Shown here: positions 1,514 to 38,684 of the stretch, in pieces
Layout: each line of letters opens with the position of its first letter
How positions within the stretch are numbered: position 1 is the first letter of the stretch
Assembly (NCBI GenBank): GCA_001899315.1
Contig: MOYA01000001.1
Span: 807,105-871,104, forward strand
Origin: Candidatus Obscuribacter phosphatis
GTDB taxonomy: Bacteria; Cyanobacteriota; Vampirovibrionia; Obscuribacterales; Obscuribacteraceae
Direction: 5' to 3'
DNA: 64,000 nt
The notes under the pieces: generated by a model
Database searches by the model: none
What the model saw: the letters and a program-made list of their open reading frames with translations, nothing else
What the model was told of the DNA's origin: nothing
Made by a program: the position numbers and the translations under genes

Positions 1514-2302
1514 GTGAGGTGTAAGTTGAGAGTCGCTTTAGTTTCTGTAAGCCTTGGATTGAGTTTAGTTCTCGCCGGTGGTTTGTCTTGCCGGGCTAAA
1601 GATAAAGGCGATTTTGAAAGAACAGGCGGTAAACATTATCCCGGAAAGAGTATTGAATATCTTTCCAGCCTCAAACCAAAGCAAAGAAAGAAAATCACTT
1701 TCCCACCTTATGACCAGGGTGGCGGATACTACTATGCCCATGGTGATTATGAAAAGGCCAGGCAATATTGGATGACCGCCTTACAGATTGCCGAAAGAGA
1801 AGTGCCGGCTGAGCGCGCCGGTGGTTTGTCCAGCGAAACAGAGCAAGCCACTTGCAGTCTAATCAACCACCTGATGTACTTTCTCAAAGACTCGCATTAT
1901 AAGCCGCCATATTTTGCCAGCCAAGGGGCCACGCCGCAGTTCACACCAAAAGGGCTACAACCTTTGCGTGATCCTGATTTGCGCAAAGTTTATCTTTATA
2001 ACTTGAAGGGACAGATGCGCGACTTCGAAGAAGACTTGCGCTTCTGGGACCGGCTGAAGAACTTTGCCAGGCGGTCTCTGGGCGAAGGGCACAATTGTAT
2101 GCGCGTGCCAATAAACAATATCGAGGTGGAATTCAATCGCAAGATCATGAATACACGCGAGATGATTGCTCGTCTAGAGCGTGAGTTGGGTGTTAGTTCA
2201 AGTGATTCGAAGCAGACTCCCTGGGGCGGCGGCTTCGTCAATCCTACCGGTAAGAATGACAATAATCCCAACCAGGGTCAGGTAGAAAATCCCTGGCCTT
2301 AG
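1514..2302 (+). CDS. Exported hypothetical protein with a TPR-like helix pair
   Basis: 262 residues from a GTG start. A basic N-terminus and a hydrophobic stretch (about residues 5-25) form a likely signal peptide; the Cys at about 26 lacks a proper lipobox, so cleavage by signal peptidase I is more likely. Around residues 70-95 the text Y-A-H-G-D-Y-E-K-A-R-Q-Y-W resembles one tetratricopeptide repeat. The C-terminus is Gly/Asn/Pro rich. I do not recognise a family. Its stop codon overlaps the stop of convergent pgsA by four bases, leaving no room for a separate terminator. Confidence 0.7.
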   Translation: MRCKLRVALVSVSLGLSLVLAGGLSCRAKDKGDFERTGGKHYPGKSIEYLSSLKPKQRKKITFPPYDQGGGYYYAHGDYEKARQYWMTALQIAEREVPAERAGGLSSETEQATCSLINHLMYFLKDSHYKPPYFASQGATPQFTPKGLQPLRDPDLRKVYLYNLKGQMRDFEEDLRFWDRLKNFARRSLGEGHNCMRVPINNIEVEFNRKIMNTREMIARLERELGVSSSDSKQTPWGGGFVNPTGKNDNNPNQGQVENPWP

Positions 2303-2904
2303 GGCTTTTCTTTATCTTTAAACAAAAAGGGACTTTCGACCAGTACGGGTAGACCCCTAACCAGGCAAAAGAATACCGATGTATAAACCAAAACATCGGC
2401 GCTGTTGTGCAAAGGCACCTGGAAATCGCTTTTAATTTGAGCGGCGATAACCGCACAAAAGGCTAAAGCTTTCACCACCGCATAGGTAAAGCGACTGAAG
2501 TTAGAGGTGACCAGGAATTTACCCAAAGGGCTTTGCATCATGGTGCTGGTACCAAAGGCGGTGTAACCTTGTTCGGAGGCAAGGGAGCGTATTGCATCAA
2601 CAAAGGTGCCCCTGATCAAGTAAACCAGGGGCACAAAAACGGGAATCCAACCGAGGGTGGAGAAGACTATCCAATAAGCCATTTCAACGGCACGGTCGCC
2701 GGCTATATCAAGGACTGCTCCTAGTTTGGAAGTCTGGTTTAGTTTTCTAGCAAAGTAACCATCGAGCCCATCGGCCCAAATAACGAATATCGTCAGGAAA
2801 AAGGCTATCCATCTAAAGCTGTCTTCTTGGAAGAAAAGCAGAGTCAGAGTAATGAGAGCCAGAAAAACCCTAGATACAGTGATTATATTGGCTACATTGA
2901 CCAT
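2299..2904 (-). CDS. pgsA: CDP-alcohol phosphatidyltransferase (phosphatidylglycerophosphate synthase-like)
   Basis: 201 residues, an integral membrane enzyme that transfers a phosphatidyl group from CDP-diacylglycerol to an alcohol, most likely glycerol 3-phosphate. The family signature D-x2-D-G-x2-A-R-x8-G-x3-D-x3-D is complete (about residues 45-67). Hydrophobic segments cover most of the rest. The ATG directly abuts the gyrB stop, so it is probably cotranscribed with and translationally coupled to gyrB. The exact acceptor is inferred from length and motif; other CDP-alcohol transferases share the signature. Confidence 0.85.
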   Translation of the reverse strand: MVNVANIITVSRVFLALITLTLLFFQEDSFRWIAFFLTIFVIWADGLDGYFARKLNQTSKLGAVLDIAGDRAVEMAYWIVFSTLGWIPVFVPLVYLIRGTFVDAIRSLASEQGYTAFGTSTMMQSPLGKFLVTSNFSRFTYAVVKALAFCAVIAAQIKSDFQVPLHNSADVLVYTSVFFCLVRGLPVLVESPFLFKDKEKP

Positions 2905-4986
<2,082 letters not shown>

Positions 4987-7450: not shown

Positions 7451-9007
7451 ATGACTTTCTCTCTTTACACCCCCTCAACTCTAATCAGGACAAAAGTGCA
7501 CGCTGGAAACATACATGACGGGCTAGATCAGAAAATCTGTCTTGAGTGCAACAGACAGTTCACCGGTATAGTCAGAGCCTGTCCCCATGATGGGGCGGCT
7601 CTCGTTCCGCTTGCTCGCGACCCAATGATTGGCACTTGTCTGATGGGCAAGTACGACATCATCGATGTTATCGGTCATGGCGGTATGGGGGTAGTCTATA
7701 AGGGGCGACAAGTGCTTATGGAGCGCACTGTCGCCATCAAGATGTTGCAGTCGCAACACATAGCCGATAGCCAGTCGGTGCAGCGCTTCTTGCGAGAGGG
7801 TAAAGCCTCTTGCCGTATGAATCATCCCAACATAATCACGGTCTATGACTTCGGGATCACCCCCCAGAGCGGGCAACCGTTTATTGTTATGGATTATTTG
7901 CAGGGCATTTCGCTCTCTGACATGATTAAGCAAGATGGTCAGGTTTCAGTCGAGCGCTCAATCAAGATATTGACTCAAGCCACCGACGCTCTAGATCATG
8001 CTCACCGTGCCGGTGTTATTCACCGTGATCTTAAGCCCAGCAATATCATGCTCATCGAGTATGAAGACGAAAAAGATTTTGTCAAAATAGTAGATTTTGG
8101 TGTCGCCCAGTTGATTGGCGCCGGCGGTGAACAACAGCGCCTCACCCAGATGGGAGAAGTTTGCGGCAGCCCGGTCTATATGAGTCCCGAGCAGTGTCAG
8201 GGCTTGGAGCTTGATGTTAGATCTGATATTTATTCCATGGGTATCGTCATTTTTGAGACCTTGACCGGTCGACTACCTCTCATTGGTAAGACTATGGTCG
8301 AAACCATGAGTAAGCATATTTCTGAAATGCCGCCGCGCTTTAGCGAGATTCGCCCCAACCTTTATATTCCTGAAAGGTTGGAAGCGGTTATTTGGAAGGC
8401 GATGGCTAAAGATCCCGCTAGCCGTCACCAGAGTATGGCTGAACTTTGTCGAGATCTGGAAACTGCGATTCCTAAGCCTGGAAAGAGTCAAGTTCTACGT
8501 ACTGATTTCCCCACCATGCCTGGTTCTGAGCCTGAAACAAAGGCTAAGAAGATTTCGCCTGTCGTGCTTGGTATAGCGGCAGTCTTCCTTCTGGTTTTGG
8601 GTGTTGCCGGCTTCTTTATGATGAACGGCAAAAAAGATAATGCCGCAGTCATTCCGGTTAAGACTGTTCCTAATAATAGCCCCCAAGCGGTCGCACCACC
8701 GGCAGTGGCGCCGCAGTCTGTTGCACCGCCGCAATCTGTTTCACCGGCGCAGTCTGCCTCTAAGCCAAGTCTTGATAGTAAGCCTGAGAACGGCAGCAAA
8801 TCTGAAGATGATTCTCAGTCGGTTGTGAAGAAAGCTGCCGTGAGCGGCAAACCTACAGCAAGTCAGGTGGAGCGGCCGGTGGTCAAGAAAGTAAAAAAAG
8901 TACGCCCGGCTGTAACGGCGGCGGCACCAGCGCCAAGACCGGCTGCTGCTGCACCGGCTGTATCGTCGGATCCCTTCAAGTCTTTGGCGCGGCGCAAGAG
9001 CTTCTAA
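7451..9007 (+). CDS. Membrane-anchored Ser/Thr protein kinase with N-terminal Cys-rich segment
   Basis: About 518 residues. A short N-terminal segment carries C-L-E-C (about residues 33-36) and C-P-H-D some twelve residues later, a possible zinc ribbon. The kinase domain follows: G-H-G-G-M-G glycine loop, A-I-K-M with the ATP lysine, H-R-D-L-K-P-S-N catalytic loop, D-F-G-V-A and S-P-E-Q, so it looks active. A single hydrophobic helix at about 375-395 is followed by a Pro/Ala/Val/Ser-rich tail of about 120 residues. Kinase inside and tail outside is the usual topology. I chose the ATG at 7451; a TTG directly before it is possible. Its stop overlaps the convergent secreted TPR gene. Substrate unknown. 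Confidence 0.85.
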   Translation: MTFSLYTPSTLIRTKVHAGNIHDGLDQKICLECNRQFTGIVRACPHDGAALVPLARDPMIGTCLMGKYDIIDVIGHGGMGVVYKGRQVLMERTVAIKMLQSQHIADSQSVQRFLREGKASCRMNHPNIITVYDFGITPQSGQPFIVMDYLQGISLSDMIKQDGQVSVERSIKILTQATDALDHAHRAGVIHRDLKPSNIMLIEYEDEKDFVKIVDFGVAQLIGAGGEQQRLTQMGEVCGSPVYMSPEQCQGLELDVRSDIYSMGIVIFETLTGRLPLIGKTMVETMSKHISEMPPRFSEIRPNLYIPERLEAVIWKAMAKDPASRHQSMAELCRDLETAIPKPGKSQVLRTDFPTMPGSEPETKAKKISPVVLGIAAVFLLVLGVAGFFMMNGKKDNAAVIPVKTVPNNSPQAVAPPAVAPQSVAPPQSVSPAQSASKPSLDSKPENGSKSEDDSQSVVKKAAVSGKPTASQVERPVVKKVKKVRPAVTAAAPAPRPAAAAPAVSSDPFKSLARRKSF

Positions 9008-9792
9008 TTGCGTCTTTGTACTTTTCGACTTTCCATACTCTTGAGAGTGTCTTCGTAGGCTTGTATTCTTTCTTGATACTGCCTGATAATCTGCGCGGTT
9101 TCTTCTTCGTGGGCTTTCTTTATAGCCTCTCTGCGCGCGTCATAGTCTTTCTTGACCGCATCTTTAGCTTCTTGGTTGACATAGGTGCCGCCAAAGCGTC
9201 GCCGCACCGGCAGGAAATTTCTTAAGGCTTGCTCTTCTTGCAGATTCATTTCATGAATTTTATTTTCCATCACTCTTTTCTTGACGGCAATTTTGTCTTC
9301 TGCTTCCTTATTCAGTCGTGCCCTCTCTTCTTTCAGTCTTTCTTTTTCGATTGGCTCGGTTGGGATACTAGACAGCTTTGCCTCATTGCCTTGGTTTGGT
9401 GAGTTTGTTTGCAGGTTTTGCAGTCCTCTTAGCGCCTCAGCGCTTAACTTGCCTGCGGCGCTTTGCGGTTGCAGTTTTTGGCAATACTCAAAGCGTGCCC
9501 TTGCTAGGTCGGGGCAGTTCTGTTTGAGCAAAATACAACCCATCAGATAATTGGCTGATTGATCCAGAGGTTTCTTCCTTAAGTACAACTCTAGACTGTT
9601 GCGAGCGCGGCTGTACATGCCTCTCTTATAGCAAGTGAGAGCATCATTTAGGAGGTCTTCTGCCGCTTGTGCTGCACAGCCTAGGCATACAAATAGACCG
9701 AGGTAAATTGCTAGAACTTTCTTGCTGCAGAATTTATTGCAAACTTGCCTAAATCTAGAATTATCGCAGCCAGTTATATATAAGCCTTTCAT
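9004..9792 (-). CDS. Secreted TPR and coiled-coil protein
   Basis: 262 residues with a long basic N-region and a hydrophobic export signal ending near A-Q-A-A (about residue 44). Residues 45-115 hold two to three TPR-like repeats (A-L-T-C-Y-K-R-G-M-Y-S-R-A and N-Y-L-M-G-C-I-L-L-K). The C-terminal half is a highly charged, probably coiled-coil region rich in K, E and R. The same layout and similar wording occur in the protein at 18593-19585, so the two are paralogues. Function unknown; TPR proteins usually hold protein complexes together, here probably in the periplasm. The start region carries short repeats, so the true start is not certain. Confidence 0.72.
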   Translation of the reverse strand: MKGLYITGCDNSRFRQVCNKFCSKKVLAIYLGLFVCLGCAAQAAEDLLNDALTCYKRGMYSRARNSLELYLRKKPLDQSANYLMGCILLKQNCPDLARARFEYCQKLQPQSAAGKLSAEALRGLQNLQTNSPNQGNEAKLSSIPTEPIEKERLKEERARLNKEAEDKIAVKKRVMENKIHEMNLQEEQALRNFLPVRRRFGGTYVNQEAKDAVKKDYDARREAIKKAHEEETAQIIRQYQERIQAYEDTLKSMESRKVQRRN

Positions 9793-29931: not shown

Positions 29932-31344
29932 GTGAGCAGTTTGGCACAAACCAGTTTGCTGGATCGGTTCTTTAGCCCGAAGGAAGGTAGCGCTAGCCGC
30001 AATTTCTTCCTTTCTGCGCTGTGGTGGTCGCTTCTCGGTATGGGAGCGGGAATGCTGGCGGCATCGGAATTTTCCATGCCCGACCTGATTCGCAACGTAC
30101 CGCAGTTGTCGATGCCTCACCTGCGTATGTGGCACGTCAATGCAGTTGCGGTTGGATGGCTGTCGATGGGTTATGTCGGCTCCATGTTCCACATGATTCC
30201 GACGCTTTGCAAAAACAAGCTTTACAGCGAGCGTCTGGGCAATTTCACCATGTGGGCTTGGAACCTGGTCATGACCGGTGCCTTCTGTACCTTGCTCAAC
30301 GGCAATACAGAAGGTCGTGAATATGCCGAGCTCGGTGCCATTCTCGATACTCTCGTTGTTGTGGGACTGGTGCTCACAGCTTTCAACCTATATATGACCA
30401 TCGTCAACCGTAAAGTGAAGAAGCTCTATGTGAGCCTTTGGTACTTCCTCGGTTCGCTCTTCTGGTTCCCTCTGGTCTGGGTTATCGGTCAACGTACCTT
30501 CGTTTCGCTACCCGGTCTTAATGACGCCATCATCGGTTGGTTCTACGGACACAATATTCTCGGTATGTGGTTCACCACCGTCGGTGTCGGTATGATGTAT
30601 TACCTAATTCCGCGATACACCAAAGCCCCTCTATATAGTCATGGTCTTTCCATGTTGGGCTTCTGGGGTATCGCTCTTTTCTATGCCCCTACCGGCACTC
30701 ACCACATCACTCAGTCGCCGGTACCGGAGTGGCTGAAGGCTATTGCCATCATTTCGTCAATCTTCCTTCTCGTTCCTGTGTTCACCGTTCTCACCAACTT
30801 CTTCATGTCGATGAAAGGTAAGTGGGGTCAGGTGGTCACTGATATGCCCTTGCGCTTCGCCGTTACATCTTGCATGTTCTACTTGGTCACTTGCACCCAG
30901 GGACCCTTCCAAGCTACTCGTTGGGTTAACTGGTATCTGCACTTCACCCAGTGGGTTGTCGGACACGCTCACTTGGCACTGCTCGGTACTTTCTCCTTCA
31001 TCCTCACCTCGGCTTTCTATTACAGTATGCCGAGATTGACCGGCAAGCAATGGCACTCCGAAGGCTTGATTCGCGCTCACTACTGGCTCAAGTTCTTGGG
31101 CTTCTTGCTGATGATGACTTCACTGACTACCGCCGGCTTGATTCAGTCTGCCGGTTGGGCGATGGGTATGCCTGTCGACCAGTGGGGCTTGCAGATCAGA
31201 CCTTACTGGTATCTGCGTACAGTGAGCGGCATCATGATCGTTCTGGGTCAAGCACTTTTTGCCTACAACGTCTACAAAACGCTATACACAAAGCCCAGTC
31301 TGGCTGATAGAAAAGCCAAGGCGGCTCGGGAGGTCAAAGTCTAA
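29932..31344 (+). CDS. ccoN: cbb3-type (C-family) cytochrome c oxidase subunit I
   Basis: 470 residues, about 12 membrane helices, close to the usual CcoN length. It is the catalytic haem-copper subunit that reduces oxygen. Low-spin haem and CuB ligands can be placed: H-V-N-A-V near residue 67, W-F-Y-G-H-N-I-L-G near 206, T-G-T-H-H-I near 265 and G-H-A-H-L-A-L-L-G near 345. The active-site tyrosine of the C family is expected in the Y-Y-L-I-P-R-Y region. Start GTG at 29932. The last base of its stop is the first of the ccoO start, so translation is coupled. First gene of the respiratory supercluster. Confidence 0.93.
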   Translation: MSSLAQTSLLDRFFSPKEGSASRNFFLSALWWSLLGMGAGMLAASEFSMPDLIRNVPQLSMPHLRMWHVNAVAVGWLSMGYVGSMFHMIPTLCKNKLYSERLGNFTMWAWNLVMTGAFCTLLNGNTEGREYAELGAILDTLVVVGLVLTAFNLYMTIVNRKVKKLYVSLWYFLGSLFWFPLVWVIGQRTFVSLPGLNDAIIGWFYGHNILGMWFTTVGVGMMYYLIPRYTKAPLYSHGLSMLGFWGIALFYAPTGTHHITQSPVPEWLKAIAIISSIFLLVPVFTVLTNFFMSMKGKWGQVVTDMPLRFAVTSCMFYLVTCTQGPFQATRWVNWYLHFTQWVVGHAHLALLGTFSFILTSAFYYSMPRLTGKQWHSEGLIRAHYWLKFLGFLLMMTSLTTAGLIQSAGWAMGMPVDQWGLQIRPYWYLRTVSGIMIVLGQALFAYNVYKTLYTKPSLADRKAKAAREVKV

Positions 31345-32288
31345 TGTACGGTTACAGGCTTGGTGCAATAGGTATTGTCACCACCTTCTTCATCATCATT
31401 TTCTCGACAGTGCTTATGCCGATGGTACTTTTCCAACCTAAGGCGAGCGGTCGTGGAAACGACTACAAGGCTATCGACCCTAAAATCGCCGATGCTGAAC
31501 GCGGTCGCAAAATCTATGTAAGAGAAGGTTGCTTCTATTGCCATACACAGTTCACTCGTATCCAAGACAGAGGCTATGGTCCTCTTGTTAAAGAAGGCGA
31601 CTATGTGTTTGAGACTCCGCACCAGTTGGGCACTGCCCGTACTGGTCCCGACCTCACCAACGAAGGTGGAAGATTCCCCTCCGAATGGCAAAAAGCACAC
31701 TTGATTGCACCCCGTGTGGTCAAGCCCGGCTCAATCATGCCCAGCTTCAGCTATCTATCTGAAGAAGATATGAATGACTTGGTCGCTTACATTCAGACCT
31801 TGGGTAACAAGCGTACAGTCACTACCTTTGTGCAAGCTCCCGACGAGTATCTGCTCACCACCCCACAAGGTCGTGGTCTAGCCGCTCGTAAGAGTGTCGA
31901 TACCAATTCTGATGCAGCCGCCAACGCCGGTCGCGGTATTTATACTCAGAACTGCGCTGCCTGCCACGGTCTCGAAGGTCGCGGCAATGGTCCTAACGCA
32001 ATCACTCTTGAGAAAAAGCCGCCGAACCTCACCCGCGACTACTACAAACAATATCCTGATGAGTTCTGGTACTACCGAATTTCTGAAGGTGTAGTCGGTA
32101 CCCGCATGCCCCGCTTCCAAGAAATTCTTTCTGAAGAGCAGCGCTGGTATCTGGTTGCCTACCTCAAGACTCTTCCCAAAGAGCACGAAGAGACCGTGGA
32201 TAGTCTCGATGACCTGAACGTTGCCGAGCCCATCCATCTGCCTAGACTGACTAGACAGCAATGGGAACCGCACCACGGTAAGGAATAG
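31344..32288 (+). CDS. ccoO: CcoO fused to an additional c-type cytochrome domain
   Basis: 314 residues. Residues 1-155 are CcoO-like: a membrane anchor helix (about 5-27), then E-G-C-F-Y-C-H-T-Q-F with the haem c site, the V-F-E-T-P-H-Q-L-G-T-A-R-T-G-P-D-L segment and the axial methionine in S-I-M-P-S-F. Residues 200-290 form a second cytochrome c domain with N-C-A-A-C-H-G and a later R-M-P-R-F methionine. Ordinary CcoO has only one haem, so this is a fusion that may replace part of CcoP. Both haems would lie outside the cytoplasmic membrane and pass electrons to CcoN. Confidence 0.9.
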   Translation: MYGYRLGAIGIVTTFFIIIFSTVLMPMVLFQPKASGRGNDYKAIDPKIADAERGRKIYVREGCFYCHTQFTRIQDRGYGPLVKEGDYVFETPHQLGTARTGPDLTNEGGRFPSEWQKAHLIAPRVVKPGSIMPSFSYLSEEDMNDLVAYIQTLGNKRTVTTFVQAPDEYLLTTPQGRGLAARKSVDTNSDAAANAGRGIYTQNCAACHGLEGRGNGPNAITLEKKPPNLTRDYYKQYPDEFWYYRISEGVVGTRMPRFQEILSEEQRWYLVAYLKTLPKEHEETVDSLDDLNVAEPIHLPRLTRQQWEPHHGKE

Positions 32289-32632: not shown

Positions 32633-32788
32633 ATGGCTGAAGAAGTCAAAAACACAGAAGAAGAGCACTACGAAGTAGTCTCCGAGTATCGAATCGGAGA
32701 AGGAGCGCCGCCGCCCTTCCTGGTCATCAGTTTCATTCTTATCTTTATATACGCAGCAGTATCCTGGATTCCCTTCTTTGGTTATTAA
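32633..32788 (+). CDS. Small one-helix membrane protein (CcoP N-terminal/CcoQ-like)
   Basis: 51 residues, ATG at 32633. A charged N-terminal third (E-E-E-H-Y-E) is followed by G-A-P-P-P-F and one hydrophobic helix (about 29-47). In CcoP proteins a similar P-P-x-hydrophobic helix anchors the dihaem part. Here the anchor may be a separate peptide while the dihaem part is the lipoprotein encoded next. An alternative is a CcoQ/CcoH-type accessory subunit. The position between ccoS and the dihaem cytochrome gene supports a structural role in the oxidase. Confidence 0.65.
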   Translation: MAEEVKNTEEEHYEVVSEYRIGEGAPPPFLVISFILIFIYAAVSWIPFFGY

Positions 32789-32795
32789 TAGGCAG

Positions 32796-33662
32796 ATGGC
32801 ACTTACTAAGGAAAATAAGTTGATTTCTCGACTCACATCGCCACAGGCGGTCAAAAGGGCACTGACCCTGGTTCTCTCGCTTTCGCTCTTTCCGGTTGTC
32901 AGCGCTCTATCTGGATGCTCGGACAGTCAGGTTAATGTAAAAGCCGATAGCGCCTTGGTTTCGACCAAAGCCACCGAAGGCAGTCACGAGCCAATCTGGC
33001 CAAACGATGACCCCTCTATTCCAGACGGCAAAGGTATCTATGAGAAGCAAAATTGCGCCTCATGCCACGGTGCCGATGGCAAGCCTGTGGAAGGCAAGAG
33101 CAAGATAGATTTCTCCGACAAAGCTTGGGCTCGCAAGCAGAAGCCGGTTGAGCAGTATGACTTCATCACTTTCGGTAAGAAAGCCGGTGAGACGGTTGAG
33201 CACCCTGTGGTGCGCGACAAGCTTCGCCCGAGCGAAATCTGGAACTTGGTCTTTTATGTGCGTTCGCTCTCGACACCTCCCTTGACTGATGCCGAGATAG
33301 CCGAACTAGACCCGGTCTTTGGTGCAAACTGTGCTGTTTGCCACGGCAAGAAGGGCTACGGTAATGGTCCTCTTATGAAAGCCAATACCCTGCAACCTTT
33401 GCCTGCCAACTTCCAATCTTTCCCTCGCTTCTATGACCGCGACGATGAGACCCTCTGGGACCACATCGCCAACGGTATCAAGTGGGAAGGCATGCCTAAT
33501 TTCTTAGGCAAAGAAGACAGACGTAACAAGGCTAAATTTGATGAGCCTTATATCTGGCGCATGGTCGGTTATATTCGCCACTTCCATGAAAGCAACAAAA
33601 CCGAGATAGCCACTCGTGAAGCAGCTAAGAAAGAAGCGGCAGAAGAAGCAAAATCTCACTAG
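32796..33662 (+). CDS. Dihaem cytochrome c lipoprotein (CcoP-like)
   Basis: 288 residues from the ATG at 32796. A signal peptide ends in a lipobox L-S-G-C (about residues 38-41), so the protein should be lipid-anchored outside the inner membrane. Two cytochrome c domains follow, with C-A-S-C-H-G (about 88-93) and C-A-V-C-H-G (about 179-184); candidate axial methionine G-M-P-N-F lies near 235. It would take the role of CcoP, bringing electrons to the oxidase, or of cytochrome c1, taking them from the Rieske protein, since no other c1 gene is present. A Lys/Ala/Glu-rich tail ends the protein. Confidence 0.85.
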   Translation: MALTKENKLISRLTSPQAVKRALTLVLSLSLFPVVSALSGCSDSQVNVKADSALVSTKATEGSHEPIWPNDDPSIPDGKGIYEKQNCASCHGADGKPVEGKSKIDFSDKAWARKQKPVEQYDFITFGKKAGETVEHPVVRDKLRPSEIWNLVFYVRSLSTPPLTDAEIAELDPVFGANCAVCHGKKGYGNGPLMKANTLQPLPANFQSFPRFYDRDDETLWDHIANGIKWEGMPNFLGKEDRRNKAKFDEPYIWRMVGYIRHFHESNKTEIATREAAKKEAAEEAKSH

Positions 33663-33708: not shown

Positions 33709-34278
33709 ATGACAGACGGCGTCAAACGAAGAGCCTTACTGAAGACGGTGGCAGCACTGCCCTTAGCCCTTACATTCGGGCTTTTGGCATCGCCTTTCTT
33801 GCGCATACTTTTGCCGACAAGAAGACCTCTCGATGTGCTCGGTGAATCAGATCAGCCCCTGGCTGAGCCCCCGATTCCTACATTTACCGACAAAGACTTC
33901 CCCAAAGATTGGACATGCTTGCCATTCATGTTTAACCAGAAGTATCTGGAATATAACCCTGAAGGCAAGGAAGTTCGCAAAATCCCCGGCTTCATCGTCA
34001 AATTGCCGAATGGCGATGTTGTTGCCTACAGCCGCATTTGTCCTCACCTTGGCTGTATCTTCAACTTCGTCGAAGATCCGGATGAATGCGCTAAGGGTTA
34101 CAACTTCAAACCCAATGGTCCGGTGTTTGCCTGCCCGTGCCATTTGAGCGTTTACGACATTGCCCAGGCTGGAAAAGTGGTGAGCGGTCCCGCTCCTCGT
34201 CCTCCGAGAAAATTCGAAGTGAAGAAAGAAGGGGACAGCTACAAGGTGGTCGCATTGGAGGCTGGTTCAATTGCCTAG
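33709..34278 (+). CDS. Rieske [2Fe-2S] protein of a bc-type complex
   Basis: 189 residues. The N-terminus has K-R-R-A-L-L-K-T and a hydrophobic helix, a Tat-like signal anchor as usual for Rieske proteins. The cluster is held by C-P-H-L-G-C (about residues 111-116) and C-P-C-H-L-S (about 143-148), each giving one Cys and one His ligand plus the disulphide pair. The usual G after C-P-C-H is L here, which could shift the redox potential. A long insertion lies between the two ligand boxes. Its stop overlaps the cytochrome b start by eight bases, so the two are translationally coupled. Confidence 0.9.
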   Translation: MTDGVKRRALLKTVAALPLALTFGLLASPFLRILLPTRRPLDVLGESDQPLAEPPIPTFTDKDFPKDWTCLPFMFNQKYLEYNPEGKEVRKIPGFIVKLPNGDVVAYSRICPHLGCIFNFVEDPDECAKGYNFKPNGPVFACPCHLSVYDIAQAGKVVSGPAPRPPRKFEVKKEGDSYKVVALEAGSIA

Positions 34279-36172
34279 TACAACTAACGACAGAAGTCTT
34301 GAAGGCGTCCTCACTTCGGTTGGGGACTGGCTTAAGATACGCATAAAGAACATCGATATCTTCGATGAGCATCACCAGGAAGAAGCAAAGACGAATCCCT
34401 TTTATGCTCTGGGACCGATCTTTTATCTAGTCTGGTTTACGGTCATGGCAACCGGTTTGCTTTTGATCATGTGGTATGTGCCCACAAAGTCTGCCGCCTT
34501 TGATTCCATCCTTAATATTCAGAATGGTATTCCGATGGGCGCCCTAATCAGGGGGATGCACAAATACGGTGCAGACGCCATGATTATCGCTGCCACAATG
34601 CGTCTCTATCGCATGTTTATTATGGCGGACTTCAAGCCTTCCAAAGAATTCAACATCATCATCGCCCTTATTACTCTGCTTCTAGCAATGTACTCCGGTC
34701 TGACCGGCTACCTCCTGATCTGGAACCAGAGGGCATTCTGGGCGACAAAGGTGTTCGCTACCTTCCCGACCTATATGGACCAATTTGCTGTGATGGGCGA
34801 TTACTATTTGCCCCTCTACAAATCACTGCACTTAGGTTGGAACACAGCCGAAGTGCTACTCGGCGGTGGTGCCGCCATCACGCAGAATACAATCACCCGA
34901 TTCTTCTCTCTGCACTTGGCTTTCTCTCTTATCCCGCTCATTCTTGTCGAACTCTACTTCTACAAGAATGCTTATAAGAGAATCCCGCTTAACTGGATCA
35001 AACGCAGCATCATTCTATTGATGCTCGCCTTCGTTGCCATCGCTCTGCCGGCGGCTCAAGGCTCTCGGTCTGATCCGGATGTCACCCCTCTGCCGATTTT
35101 GTCCGACTGGTACTTCCTTGGCTTGTATCAGATGTACAAATATCTAGAGCCGGTTGTTGCCACCTACATAACCCTAGTCATTCCGCTATCAGTGTTTGCT
35201 TTGCCTTTCATGGACAGCTATATCACTGGTCCCGAGAAAGACATAATGAAGCGTCCTTTCATGCTGATGATGACCTTCATGGGTTTTGTTTGCTGGATAG
35301 TGTTCTCGGTATTGATTATCGTCAACATCGCCAACATTCACACCGACCCGCCCTATTGGAGATCTTTCCTCTATCTGACAATTGACATCGGCATCATCTG
35401 GCAGCTCTATCTCATCTCTACAAACAAAGATTTGAAATGGAAAGCTAAACAGACCGTTGCCTGCGCCATCATGTTAGGTCTGGCTCTGGTTCAGTGTTTT
35501 TGGTCATGGGTCTATGACTACATGGCTAAGACCGAAATGTTCATCGACCCGCTTGGCCATGCTGCTCTATATAGTCTTGGTCGCGGAGCGATGGGTGATT
35601 CGGCTGAGCAAGTGGAAACACTGGTGCGTAAGATGCACCCGCCATCTGGCGAGAAGCCTGTCAACCAAGAATACTGGAACCTGCATGTGCTACTCGACCC
35701 GGGCTATATGGCACGCATCGGCAGCCCTGCCGGCAAGGAAGATCTAGAAGCGCTGAAGAAACTTTGCGTCGAAACCAAGACACCTCTCGATTTCGTAGTC
35801 AAAGCCATTCCCACCTTCGAAACTCCAATGGGTCAAAATGGTGCCTTCCTTATCAATGAGAACGGCAAGAAAGTAAGCATGCTCTCTGATAAAGAGAAGG
35901 GTGCCCACCCGACCTATCACGGTCTTGTCGACTTCATGGTCAACAACCGTTGGTGCTGGGACTATTGCACTCTCGTCGACAGAATGAAGGGTGGAGTAGT
36001 GAAAGGCTATCCGATGAGTGTGCCTGACGTTGATTGGTACTGGATCATTGGTGGCATTGTCTCTGCAGTTTATGCTGCCTTCGTTATGGTGCAGTGCAAA
36101 CAAGCGCAGTCTCAAGCCGAGCCGCCCAAGCCGCAGCCCGAGCCAAAACCGGCGCCAGCCTCTGGTAGCTAG
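34271..36172 (+). CDS. Long cytochrome b lacking both bH haem histidines
   Basis: 633 residues from a TTG start inside the Rieske stop region. The N-terminal part is cytochrome b-like, followed by helices of the subunit IV part and a C-terminal extension of about 200 residues with a last helix and a Pro/Gln/Glu tail. In helix B the first ligand is His97, but the partner 14 residues later is Arg111. In helix D His215 is present, but 14 residues later stands Tyr229. So the pair for the outer (bL) haem is kept and the pair for the inner (bH) haem is lost. The Qo motif P-E-W-Y reads S-D-W-Y. It may work only as partner of the second cytochrome b. Confidence 0.9.
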   Translation: MPSTTNDRSLEGVLTSVGDWLKIRIKNIDIFDEHHQEEAKTNPFYALGPIFYLVWFTVMATGLLLIMWYVPTKSAAFDSILNIQNGIPMGALIRGMHKYGADAMIIAATMRLYRMFIMADFKPSKEFNIIIALITLLLAMYSGLTGYLLIWNQRAFWATKVFATFPTYMDQFAVMGDYYLPLYKSLHLGWNTAEVLLGGGAAITQNTITRFFSLHLAFSLIPLILVELYFYKNAYKRIPLNWIKRSIILLMLAFVAIALPAAQGSRSDPDVTPLPILSDWYFLGLYQMYKYLEPVVATYITLVIPLSVFALPFMDSYITGPEKDIMKRPFMLMMTFMGFVCWIVFSVLIIVNIANIHTDPPYWRSFLYLTIDIGIIWQLYLISTNKDLKWKAKQTVACAIMLGLALVQCFWSWVYDYMAKTEMFIDPLGHAALYSLGRGAMGDSAEQVETLVRKMHPPSGEKPVNQEYWNLHVLLDPGYMARIGSPAGKEDLEALKKLCVETKTPLDFVVKAIPTFETPMGQNGAFLINENGKKVSMLSDKEKGAHPTYHGLVDFMVNNRWCWDYCTLVDRMKGGVVKGYPMSVPDVDWYWIIGGIVSAVYAAFVMVQCKQAQSQAEPPKPQPEPKPAPASGS

Positions 36173-36174
36173 TC

Positions 36175-36579
36175 GTGACCTCAGAGAACGAAAGCAATCT
36201 GGATAACGAAAGTAGTAAGGAAAAGAACAAGAAGAAAATGAATTTGAGCGCGGTTCTGAAAGGAAGAAATGCCAACACCGATAAAGTCGGTGCCGGCACC
36301 GCGCCCAAATTCAAAGTTCGCTTCTCTATCAAGTTGTCTGTTTTTGTTCTCGCCACATTAGCTCTTTCCTGGTTTTTCGAAGGATTCAGACAGGTTAATG
36401 AAGCTCCTACCGCCTGGGGACTAGCTCTCCTTTTCGGTGGCACCACCCTGACCATCATTCTGGTTGGTGTCTACGGCTTCTTTATCTATGCTGAGGAGAG
36501 AGCCAAGGGGTCGCCGATTCGCAATATTCCGCTATTTGATCGTTGGTATAGACATTTCACTGAAAAGGGAGATAAGTAA
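36175..36579 (+). CDS. Small membrane protein of the respiratory cluster
   Basis: 134 residues, GTG start three bases behind the cytochrome b stop. The first 45 residues are polar and very rich in Lys, Asn, Ser and Glu. Two hydrophobic helices follow (about 54-70 and 82-103), then a basic C-terminus (F-D-R-W-Y-R-H-F). I do not recognise the family. Its position between the two cytochrome b genes makes an accessory subunit of the bc-like complex likely. Confidence 0.65.
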   Translation: MTSENESNLDNESSKEKNKKKMNLSAVLKGRNANTDKVGAGTAPKFKVRFSIKLSVFVLATLALSWFFEGFRQVNEAPTAWGLALLFGGTTLTIILVGVYGFFIYAEERAKGSPIRNIPLFDRWYRHFTEKGDK

Positions 36580-36583
36580 AGTC

Positions 36584-36937
36584 GTGGGTAAGGGAATAAA
36601 CAGCATCCTCGCCATCGTCGGCGGTGTCCTGTGTGTATTAATCACCCTGGCTATGCCTTGGGCTGAGCTTGGTATGGATGCCTCTTTTCAGAATTGGCCC
36701 GAGTGGTTGAAATGGCTTTCCATCAACCTTAATGTGCCGCTTCCTGATTATGCTCATATGTCCAACTATGCCTCGGAGTGGACAGCGCATCTCAAGAAAG
36801 CCGGTGCTGAGAGCCGTTATGGCGACTATGCCTATGCCTTATTGATGGGCTTAGCCATGTTCGCATCCGCCATTGGTATCGCTGCTGTAGGCAGAGAAGA
36901 AGGCGAAGAAAAAACTGTATTGCCGGTGAAGAAGTAA
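36584..36937 (+). CDS. Small two-helix membrane protein of the respiratory cluster
   Basis: 117 residues from a GTG at 36584, just behind the previous stop. A longer frame opens at 36464 but would overlap the preceding gene by 116 bases, so the later start is preferred. Helices at about 7-25 and 84-103 frame an extracytoplasmic loop of about 55 residues rich in Trp and Tyr (N-W-P-E-W-L-K-W-L). The C-terminus is acidic. No family recognised. Probably an accessory subunit bridging the two unlike cytochrome b proteins. Confidence 0.62.
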   Translation: MGKGINSILAIVGGVLCVLITLAMPWAELGMDASFQNWPEWLKWLSINLNVPLPDYAHMSNYASEWTAHLKKAGAESRYGDYAYALLMGLAMFASAIGIAAVGREEGEEKTVLPVKK

Positions 36938-36962: not shown

Positions 36963-38120
36963 ATGTACTCGTCGATACCGAAGGGCATGACCGATCTGAC
37001 TCTAGCAATAGAGAAAGCGGTAAACGCCGTTCTAACCAATAAGTACAACCCCTTTTATTACCACGGTGCTCTACCGCAGTTTTATTTGTGGGTTTTGTTT
37101 CTGTCTGGTTTGTTGCTATTTGCCTATTACATTCCGACAATCGACAATGCTTACTTCTCTGAGAACCTGGTCAACGCCTGGACCTCAGTAGACTACATCA
37201 CTGACACTCTGCCTTATGGTGCCGTGGTCAGGGCTATACACCGCTATGCCGGCGATGCCATGGTTATCACCATCGTCTTGCACGCCTTGCGTGTTTGGAT
37301 TACCGACCGCTATCGTCAGTACCGCTGGTTCCAGTGGGTGAGCGGCATCGTTCTTTTCCTTATGGTCATGTTCATCGGTCAGACCGGTTATTATCTGGTT
37401 TGGGACGAGCGCTCCCTCATCCTCACCCGTATGACTTCGACCGCTCTAGAAGCTATTCCCTTTATCGGACCCGGGCTCAAGACCTGGTTCTTGAACGGTG
37501 GAGCGATAACCAACCTGACACTCTCCAACTTCCTTTTCATTCATATTGGTTTTTCCTTCTCTCTACTTTTCGGTCTCTGGTTGCACTATGTGCGCATGAC
37601 CAGACCGGTAATTACACCTCCGCCTGCCATCAACTATATGCTTGTGGCTGTGCTCTTGGTCTTTGTCTTCTTGGTTCCGGTCACTTCCGGCAAGATGGCT
37701 GACATCAACACCCAACCGACAAGCTTTGAGATCGACTGGTTCTTCCTCTGGCCCTATTACCTGCTCGCCCACGTGGACATCACCACCTATTGGGTCTTGA
37801 TTATTGGTGGTTCAGTGGCTCTCTGCTTGATTCCTTTGCCCAGTCTCTACAAGGCTGCACATCCGGTCGAGCCTGCCGAAGTGGTGCTCAATAAGTGCAC
37901 CGGATGTTCGATGTGTGCCGCAGACTGTCCTTATCAGGCTATTGAAATGGTACCGGCTCCCTCCGGTTCACGCTTCAAGAAACTGGCTACAGTCAAGGCT
38001 TATCGTTGCTCCGGCTGCGGAGTCTGTGTGGGGGCTTGTGCCTTCGACGCCATCGACCTGCCTAACTTGCTCGATACCGATGTGACCGCCAAGATCAAGG
38101 CGCTCGCTGAAGCCCAGTAA
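36963..38120 (+). CDS. Cytochrome b fused to a 2[4Fe-4S] ferredoxin domain
   Basis: 385 residues. Residues 1-300 are a cytochrome b with about eight helices. All four haem ligands are present: His93 and His107 in helix B, His194 and His208 in helix D. The Qo-site region reads I-D-W-F in place of P-E-W-Y. Residues 310-370 form a bacterial ferredoxin domain with C-T-G-C-S-M-C-A-A-D-C-P and C-S-G-C-G-V-C-V-G-A-C, enough for two [4Fe-4S] clusters, expected on the cytoplasmic side. This gives a route between the quinone pool and cytoplasmic low-potential carriers. An MvhD-like gene follows directly. GGGAG precedes the ATG. Confidence 0.9.
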   Translation: MYSSIPKGMTDLTLAIEKAVNAVLTNKYNPFYYHGALPQFYLWVLFLSGLLLFAYYIPTIDNAYFSENLVNAWTSVDYITDTLPYGAVVRAIHRYAGDAMVITIVLHALRVWITDRYRQYRWFQWVSGIVLFLMVMFIGQTGYYLVWDERSLILTRMTSTALEAIPFIGPGLKTWFLNGGAITNLTLSNFLFIHIGFSFSLLFGLWLHYVRMTRPVITPPPAINYMLVAVLLVFVFLVPVTSGKMADINTQPTSFEIDWFFLWPYYLLAHVDITTYWVLIIGGSVALCLIPLPSLYKAAHPVEPAEVVLNKCTGCSMCAADCPYQAIEMVPAPSGSRFKKLATVKAYRCSGCGVCVGACAFDAIDLPNLLDTDVTAKIKALAEAQ

Positions 38121-38157: not shown

Positions 38158-38547
38158 ATGTCCGAAAAGAAGGTAATAACGCTAATTTGTGAAAGGGCTG
38201 CCGATCTAGATTCGGCATGCAGCGCCAGCGGCGAAGTTAAAGACGTCGAAGGCCTGCACGTGGTCAAACTACCATGCAGTGGAATGATTCAGCCCCTCAT
38301 GATTGAAGCCGCGCTGAAAGCCGGAGCCGCTGGAGTGATTGTCACCGGCTGTCAGATTGGCGATTGCTATTACCGCGAAGGTAATCGCATGATTAGAGAA
38401 AGACTGCTCGGTGAGCGTACACCTGGCTTGAAGAAGAATGTCGACAGAAGACGCATTCTTGCTTTGTGGCTTTCTCGCCCACAGAAAGAAAGATTCTTGT
38501 CTGAGGCGAAAGAGTTCGTCAACTATGTGCGTAAGCTCACAGACTAA
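38158..38547 (+). CDS. MvhD/FlpD-type iron-sulfur electron-transfer protein
   Basis: 129 residues. It resembles MvhD, the small [2Fe-2S] protein that passes electrons between hydrogenase or formate dehydrogenase and heterodisulfide reductase in methanogens and other anaerobes. Family segments are L-P-C-S-G, then V-T-G-C-Q-I-G-D-C-Y-Y-R-E-G-N and a late cluster of charged residues. The usual N-terminal C-N-W-C is changed to I-C-E-R-A, with other Cys nearby (S-A-C-S), so the cluster may be ligated differently. No HdrA or hydrogenase is near. It lies 37 bases behind the cytochrome b-ferredoxin gene, its likely partner. Confidence 0.82.
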   Translation: MSEKKVITLICERAADLDSACSASGEVKDVEGLHVVKLPCSGMIQPLMIEAALKAGAAGVIVTGCQIGDCYYREGNRMIRERLLGERTPGLKKNVDRRRILALWLSRPQKERFLSEAKEFVNYVRKLTD

Positions 38548-38561
38548 GGGAGTTATTGGAA

Positions 38562-38684
38562 ATGGCCGAGAAATCAAACAAGATCTCAGAGATTGACGTC
38601 ATCTATAGATGGGCGTGGTTCTTTGTTTTCTACTTTGTCTGTATTCTTCTTATCGCTTGCTTTGGCCTTGTCGCCGAATTCTAA
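38562..38684 (+). CDS. 40-residue single-helix membrane peptide
   Basis: ATG at 38562, GGGAGTTATTGGA upstream as ribosome-binding site. Twelve polar residues are followed by one hydrophobic helix with several aromatic residues (W-A-W-F-F-V-F-Y-F). Too short for family recognition. It is the last gene of the respiratory cluster and ends just before the convergent sigma factor gene. Small single-helix subunits of this kind are common in cytochrome b6f, bc1 and oxidase complexes. Confidence 0.6.
   Translation: MAEKSNKISEIDVIYRWAWFFVFYFVCILLIACFGLVAEF

Follow-up and report, generated by a model that had tools for sequence, protein, structure and literature searches.

An MvhD-type adapter as a candidate n-side subunit of a proposed asymmetric Rieske/cytochrome b complex encoded with a cbb3-type oxidase in Candidatus Obscuribacter phosphatis

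The stretch of DNA analyzed here (the window) comprised 64,000 nucleotides of contig MOYA01000001.1 of Candidatus Obscuribacter phosphatis, in which a cbb3-oxidase/Rieske/cytochrome b cluster ends with a gene for an MvhD/FlpD adapter protein, all of the upstream cluster genes lying on the same strand (Table 1). This cluster had been described as oxygen-respiring in a first-pass annotation made from the sequence, which agreed with the CcoN, CcoO-cytochrome c, cytochrome c, Rieske and cytochrome b genes identified upstream; the MvhD gene also followed the cytochrome b-ferredoxin gene as annotated, with a gap of 37 bp from the stop codon of the latter. Both a Rieske protein and a cytochrome b with a Qo-type motif, which together are taken to mark a bc1/b6f complex, were present in the cluster. 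The Rieske motifs CPHxGC and CPCH were conserved (58 sequences), the ferredoxin domain of the cytochrome b-ferredoxin corresponded approximately to residues 305–385, and the position of the two-domain cytochrome c was kept in the related loci. The first of the two small membrane proteins was conserved in position in Obscuribacterales and more weakly elsewhere; the ORF of the second overlaps it and its true start is uncertain. No gene for an n-side NAD(P) oxidoreductase of the anammox type was detected among the cluster ORFs with family profiles, and the surroundings of MvhD revealed no gene for a dedicated electron donor.

Table 1. Genes of the oxidase/Rieske/cytochrome b/MvhD cluster, in window coordinates.
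Feature	Position	Strand	Evidence and remarks
CcoN-like cbb3-type haem-copper oxidase subunit I	29932..31344	+	PF00115 4.5e-79, TIGR00780 2.8e-81
CcoO-like subunit fused to a cytochrome c domain	31344..32288	+	PF02433 1e-30, PF00034
Two-domain (di-haem) cytochrome c, start codon uncertain	32778..33662	+	PF13442/PF00034, two stretches
Rieske [2Fe-2S] protein	33709..34278	+	PF00355 8.2e-10
Rieske-side cytochrome b, 633 aa	34271..36172	+	PF00033 2.8e-20
Small membrane protein, no Pfam match	36175..36579	+	Positional homologues
Second small membrane protein	36464..36937	+	ORF, no convincing family match
Cytochrome b with C-terminal 2x[4Fe-4S] ferredoxin domain	36963..38120	+	PF00033 5e-23, PF12838 2.7e-9
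MvhD/FlpD [2Fe-2S] adapter protein	38158..38547	+	PF02662 74.9 bits, 129 aa; only FlpD copy in a genome-wide search
40-aa single-helix membrane protein	38562..38684	+	Homologous ORF directly 3' of MvhD in about 60 related loci

The whole MvhD ORF was covered by the PF02662 (FlpD) profile (7.3e-21; profile positions 1–122 of 123; curated cut-off of 22.3 bits), and its closest solved relatives by sequence were MvhD chains (5odc_D, 1.8e-15), which confirmed the assignment of the product as an MvhD-type protein. A dN/dS of approximately 0.03–0.06 was obtained against close relatives, and hence the gene is under strong purifying selection. The segment GCQIGDC, reported in the first-pass annotation as kept, was present, and in the alignment with 5odc_D residues Cys42, Cys67 and Cys72 of the latter corresponded to C40, C65 and C70, all of them retained. 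The N-terminal cysteine pair had been described as changed, and this was correct only in part: Cys12 was replaced (I10), as was Cys16 (A14), but Cys13 was kept (C11), so that CCNWC of 5odc_D reads ICERA in the window MvhD. The four cysteines C11, C40, C65 and C70 were nearly invariant (at least 97% of 64 sequences) and occurred also in most of the fused relatives from SAR324 and Nitrospinota. A purely structural MvhD devoid of a functional cluster, which the loss of Cys16 and the lack of the fourth cysteine in one tandem copy from Nitrospinota might suggest, was considered very improbable in view of this conservation.

MvhD adapters are best known from methanogenic archaea and anaerobic methanogenesis. 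In the source genome no HdrA was found, the HdrA2 profile matching only the window MvhD, the window ferredoxin domain and weak fragments. The CCG-domain matches were confined, genome-wide, to a single GlcF-like ORF of 465 aa, which is probably a glycolate oxidase, since it adjoins a GlcE-like protein (both named by sequence reading). Two NiFe hydrogenases were encoded in the genome, both unlinked to the window cluster and neither of them beside an MvhD gene. The first, a group 2a-like uptake hydrogenase (L121:5625-12814), had its own accessory genes, a NifU/Rieske-like fusion and an NHL-repeat protein being encoded close by; the second, a group 3b-like soluble enzyme (L122:7080-11156), had its own diaphorase-like subunits, and its neighbors on the flanks were universal stress proteins and an acetyl-CoA hydrolase-like gene. 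The earlier statement that neither HdrA nor hydrogenase is present was therefore right for the cluster, and for HdrA in the whole genome as well, but the genome does hold the two unlinked hydrogenases. The view that MvhD stands outside its usual Hdr/hydrogenase setting was upheld, and no normal Hdr-hydrogenase set using this gene, the finding that would have spoken against that view, was encountered in the genome-wide Hdr search. With no HdrA, one GlcF-like CCG protein and unlinked hydrogenases, HdrA, HdrB/C and hydrogenase were rejected as partners of MvhD.

A related possibility is that the complex receives electrons through MvhD from one particular cytosolic enzyme, either a dehydrogenase or a hydrogenase such as the group 3b-like or the 2a-like NiFe enzyme, in parallel to the relay that MvhD provides between Mvh or Fdh and Hdr. 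Hydrogenase and formate dehydrogenase are indeed enzymes for which MvhD is known to act as connector (PMC12350162, PMC6019823), and two NiFe hydrogenases are available in the genome; nevertheless, neither is linked to MvhD and each comes with its own diaphorase-like subunits (3b-like) or accessory genes (2a-like), and this explanation was judged improbable. The NuoF family gave no match in the source genome, so that complex I probably lacks the NADH module, and two matches of the 2-oxoacid:ferredoxin oxidoreductase (POR) type were found; the two observations together would suit a ferredoxin economy.

The link between MvhD and the cytochrome b-ferredoxin was analyzed in 382 Vampirovibrionia genomes with a model for each protein. 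MvhD was detected in 78 genomes, always as one copy, and the cytochrome b-ferredoxin in 80; the only two genomes with the latter and without MvhD (G233 and G278) both stop at contig edges. MvhD lay directly after the cytochrome b-ferredoxin gene in 64 of the 67 related loci, the remaining three being cut at the contig end; the set includes two loci (L065 and L067) from bins named Chloroflexi and Proteobacteria, which are probably mislabelled. The gene order from CcoN to MvhD was kept from Obscuribacterales to Vampirovibrio and Caenarcanales wherever the contig was long enough. Among the Vampirovibrionia genomes listed, no member of family f2, which from its size may be Gastranaerophilales, carried MvhD or the cytochrome b-ferredoxin. 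Gut Gastranaerophilales have been described as fermenters (PMC4040986). Weak FlpD-like matches from two further genomes within the phylum (L011 and L012; about 209 aa) were set aside, with no cytochrome b-ferredoxin match nearby and the first cysteine of the GC-DC segment missing.

Furthermore, cytochrome b, ferredoxin and MvhD formed one single chain, in this order, in 11/11 complete homologues found in SAR324 and Nitrospinota; a twelfth, partial homologue (L119:1-996) was also fused, and L120 was cut. All four haem-ligand histidines were kept in the fused proteins of SAR324. The fused genes adjoined oxidase and SCO1 genes and, in SAR324, also a cd1-type nitrite reductase-like gene (two loci; sequence reading). 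Some Nitrospinota carried the fusion genes in tandem (L113:5644-7152 and 7755-9479; L119:1-996 and 1852-3342), the first copy reading EDG instead of EDC at the fourth MvhD cysteine, and in the SAR324 fusions MvhD was followed by an additional C-terminal part containing a hydrophobic stretch (L111:9483-10103). A study of Nitrospina gracilis (PMC3578206) mentions, as the second of its kind there, an unsplit cytochrome b of the b/b6 type, which may be the fused cytochrome b-ferredoxin-MvhD protein.

Additionally, the ferredoxin and MvhD gene pair was collinear with the C-terminus of HdrA2 (ferredoxin at 572–644, MvhD at 647–775); the HdrA2 model matched only these two parts at the locus, and the flavin-binding HdrA part was absent next to them. 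A fused MvhD is a known part of the HdrA2 C-terminus (PMC6019823), and the order ferredoxin-then-MvhD is shared with the latter (NF040770), but here two adjacent genes are involved and a cytochrome b takes the place of the flavin-binding part. Chance adjacency of MvhD and the cytochrome b-ferredoxin was ruled out by the co-occurrence and the natural fusions. Because co-occurrence had no real exception, adjacency was strict, and both the fusions and the collinearity with HdrA2 pointed the same way, the fused ferredoxin was identified as the putative partner of MvhD. In the first-pass annotation a soluble low-potential donor had been put forward as a new docking partner that meets the membrane complex through MvhD and the fused ferredoxin, possibly in a confurcation with quinol; the pairing of MvhD with the ferredoxin was upheld, and the donor and the confurcation are kept as hypotheses. 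Gene-neighborhood statistics without a link, named there as a refutation, were not obtained. At the level of gene content and order, MvhD and the cytochrome b-ferredoxin were thereby shown to behave as one predicted functional unit.

A single-chain model of a fused Nitrospinota relative (28 sequences; mean pLDDT 81, pTM 0.75) contained six transmembrane-length helices, counted manually, followed by the ferredoxin and MvhD domains. In b6 the side of the N-terminus is the n-side. Since six helices precede them, both domains would lie on the side of the N-terminus, the n-side in b6, and the modelled topology is fitting for a cytoplasmic C-terminus carrying ferredoxin and MvhD. The single-chain model of the Rieske-side cytochrome b had a mean pLDDT of 77, with a poor stretch at residues 151–209. 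Both models matched the cytochrome b of bc1 in structure comparison, the matches covering the cytochrome b part only. The Rieske-side cytochrome b also had a long, poorly conserved C-terminal extension (window 35380-36172), with further helices in the model.

The bc-type complexes are homodimers in which each cytochrome b holds both haems. In the Rieske-side cytochrome b, the p-side haem ligands H97 and H215 were present in 56/56 sequences, and the core of a Qo-like motif, ILSDWYF, with S-D replacing P-E of PEWY, was likewise invariant (56/56). The n-side ligand positions were without histidine, position 111 being R in 54 sequences and K in two and position 229 being Y in all 56, and so this partner of the Rieske protein does not show the two bis-His b haems that serve to recognize such complexes. 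Profile alignment to the paralogue (hhalign) paired H107 with R111 and H208 with Y229, and the alignment to b6 agreed; in a b6-style count, which adds one residue to the last helix, F, Y, I or L and never His occupied position 230 or 231. Both His pairs were kept in the controls, namely two other Rieske-linked cytochromes b of the source genome and the cytochromes b of Nitrospinota, and therefore the n-side ligand loss is specific to the Rieske-side cytochrome b. An alignment error was ruled out by the three alignments and by these controls. From the ligand positions we infer that the n-side haem is absent from this cytochrome b, other ligands being conceivable.

In the cytochrome b-ferredoxin, all four histidine ligands (H93, H107, H194 and H208) were present in 65/65 sequences, and the Qo-type motif was decayed (D258 in 64/65, W259 in 48/65). 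Judged by these residues, the two cytochromes b of the cluster were shown to be complementary, each having lost what the other has kept. With the loss of the n-side ligands, which the first-pass annotation had missed, the unit departs further from the usual than an ordinary bc complex to which an adapter docks. The genome encoded two additional Rieske/cytochrome b sets (L132:6306-7963 and L133:4219-6641), with PEWY and all of the haem ligands; one adjoined a bd-like oxidase that has a cytochrome c domain, and the other lay in a nitrate/nitrite oxidoreductase-like cluster.

The reading we tentatively prefer, at slightly less than an even chance, is that an asymmetric Rieske/cytochrome b complex, encoded with the cbb3-type oxidase, includes MvhD as a dedicated subunit on its n-side, where bn, ferredoxin and MvhD would form an electron port. 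The corresponding mechanism, held with the same reserve, would start from a heterodimer of the two cluster cytochromes b, in which quinol would be oxidized at the Rieske-side cytochrome b with its p-side haem only. One electron would pass through the Rieske protein and the cytochromes c to O2, and the other would cross the bL-bL bridge into the cytochrome b-ferredoxin and reach the n-side haem bn, the only bn of the complex, which the two [4Fe-4S] clusters and the [2Fe-2S] cluster of MvhD would connect to a soluble low-potential carrier. Carrier and quinol would in this way exchange electrons coupled to O2 reduction, and the SAR324 and Nitrospinota fusions would represent stand-alone ports. 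Electron transfer between monomers through bL-bL does occur and is catalytically relevant in engineered bc1 (PMC4330944).

Within the asymmetric complex the usual direction, which is less certain, would be inward, from the carrier (probably ferredoxin) through MvhD and the [4Fe-4S] clusters to bn and the n-side quinone, where the carrier electron could join the electron coming from Qo. Ferredoxin-assisted Q-cycles have been proposed for b6f and are analogous to such an inward flow. MvhD would then probably let a soluble low-potential carrier feed directly into oxygen respiration. This direction was favored by thermodynamic reasoning, because outward flow would have to work against the membrane potential and to attain a very low potential (our own estimate).

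The same complex could also work outward: quinol would bifurcate at Qo, with reduction of O2 on one branch as the driving force, and on the other the low-potential electron would leave by way of bn, the ferredoxin domain and MvhD and reduce a soluble acceptor, either ferredoxin or, through an oxidoreductase, NAD(P). Such a flow has been proposed for the Rieske/cytochrome b complexes of anammox bacteria, which bear an n-side NAD(P) oxidoreductase (PMC12954380), a precedent that speaks against a firm choice of direction; the linkage to Rieske and oxidase genes would fit an O2-driven bifurcation, and the route to reduced ferredoxin in autotrophic Nitrospinota is an open question (PMC3578206). However, electrons moving from the p-side to the n-side against the membrane potential would hardly reach ferredoxin potentials, by our own estimate, and the fetched flanks of the SAR324 and Nitrospinota fusions, which were short, contained no match to the window-type Rieske protein. 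Outward flow was therefore regarded as unlikely, though still a serious alternative.

In a different arrangement, each cytochrome b would form a homodimer of its own: the Rieske unit would have a single haem, the cytochrome b-ferredoxin with MvhD would act independently as a carrier:quinone oxidoreductase, and the two would merely be co-expressed. No second cytochrome b of the Rieske-side kind was found in three SAR324 genomes, possibly incomplete, and so the fused protein, which keeps all four haem ligands, seems to work without such a partner there; the module can probably function alone. Nevertheless, a Rieske-side cytochrome b without bn would have no outlet for the low-potential electron unless the other cytochrome b supplied one, and the complementary losses were invariant across the class. 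We regard separate homodimers as decidedly unlikely, and the asymmetric heterodimer was retained as the preferred reading.

Relative to MvhD, VhuD and ElpC of methanogen HdrABC (PDB 5odc, 7bkb; PMC12350162), the window protein was alike in family, length and GC-x4-C segment (GCQIGDC), and a connector role beside a ferredoxin-type domain is likely common to them. It differed in the absence of Hdr and of a linked hydrogenase, in the reduction of the N-terminal CxxC to one cysteine (CER) and in its partner, here a membrane cytochrome b in an oxygen-respiring cluster. The anammox complexes (PMC12954380) likewise combine a b6f-like cytochrome b and a Rieske protein with a cytoplasmic iron-sulfur route near the n-side haem; theirs is a flavin NAD(P) module, whereas here ferredoxin and MvhD are found, with no flavin, together with two different cytochromes b, one of them without n-side haem ligands. 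A complex III-IV cluster, with cytochrome b6/Rieske genes beside a C-type oxygen reductase, was already noted in Obscuribacter and other Melainabacteria (PMC6349859), and this is the same kind of organism and cluster as here; that text does not contain 'mvh', and no mention of a ferredoxin fusion or of haem-ligand loss was found in it. Within the open literature searched, no description was found of MvhD in a Rieske/cytochrome b cluster, nor of the ferredoxin fusion, the haem-ligand loss or the 40-aa ORF of such a cluster.

Cytochrome b6f receives ferredoxin input in cyclic electron flow, and engineered asymmetric bc1 complexes serve to test electron crossing between monomers. The proteins described here are related to b6 by sequence, and a ferredoxin port on the n-side that feeds a Q-cycle would be a counterpart of that input; unlike in b6f, the ferredoxin domain and the adapter are genetically fixed parts, there is no photosystem, and no cysteine was read at the covalent haem position of b6. 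If the proposed complex exists, a lineage whose haem roles are divided over two genes would offer a naturally occurring equivalent of the engineered complexes, a methanogenesis-type adapter would serve aerobic respiration in close relatives of cyanobacteria that do not photosynthesize, and the case would bear on the origin of ferredoxin input into b6f-type complexes. Should the Nitrospinota fusions work alike, they would be candidates for how these bacteria handle low-potential electrons.

Finally, the 40-aa ORF directly downstream of MvhD was unannotated and had been missed in the first-pass annotation. It carried a C-terminal motif like IA[CS]FG[LI][VI]AE, and its nucleotide changes were mostly synonymous (pS 0.73–1.0 versus pN 0.09–0.15). 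Its product is a likely extra subunit of the complex.
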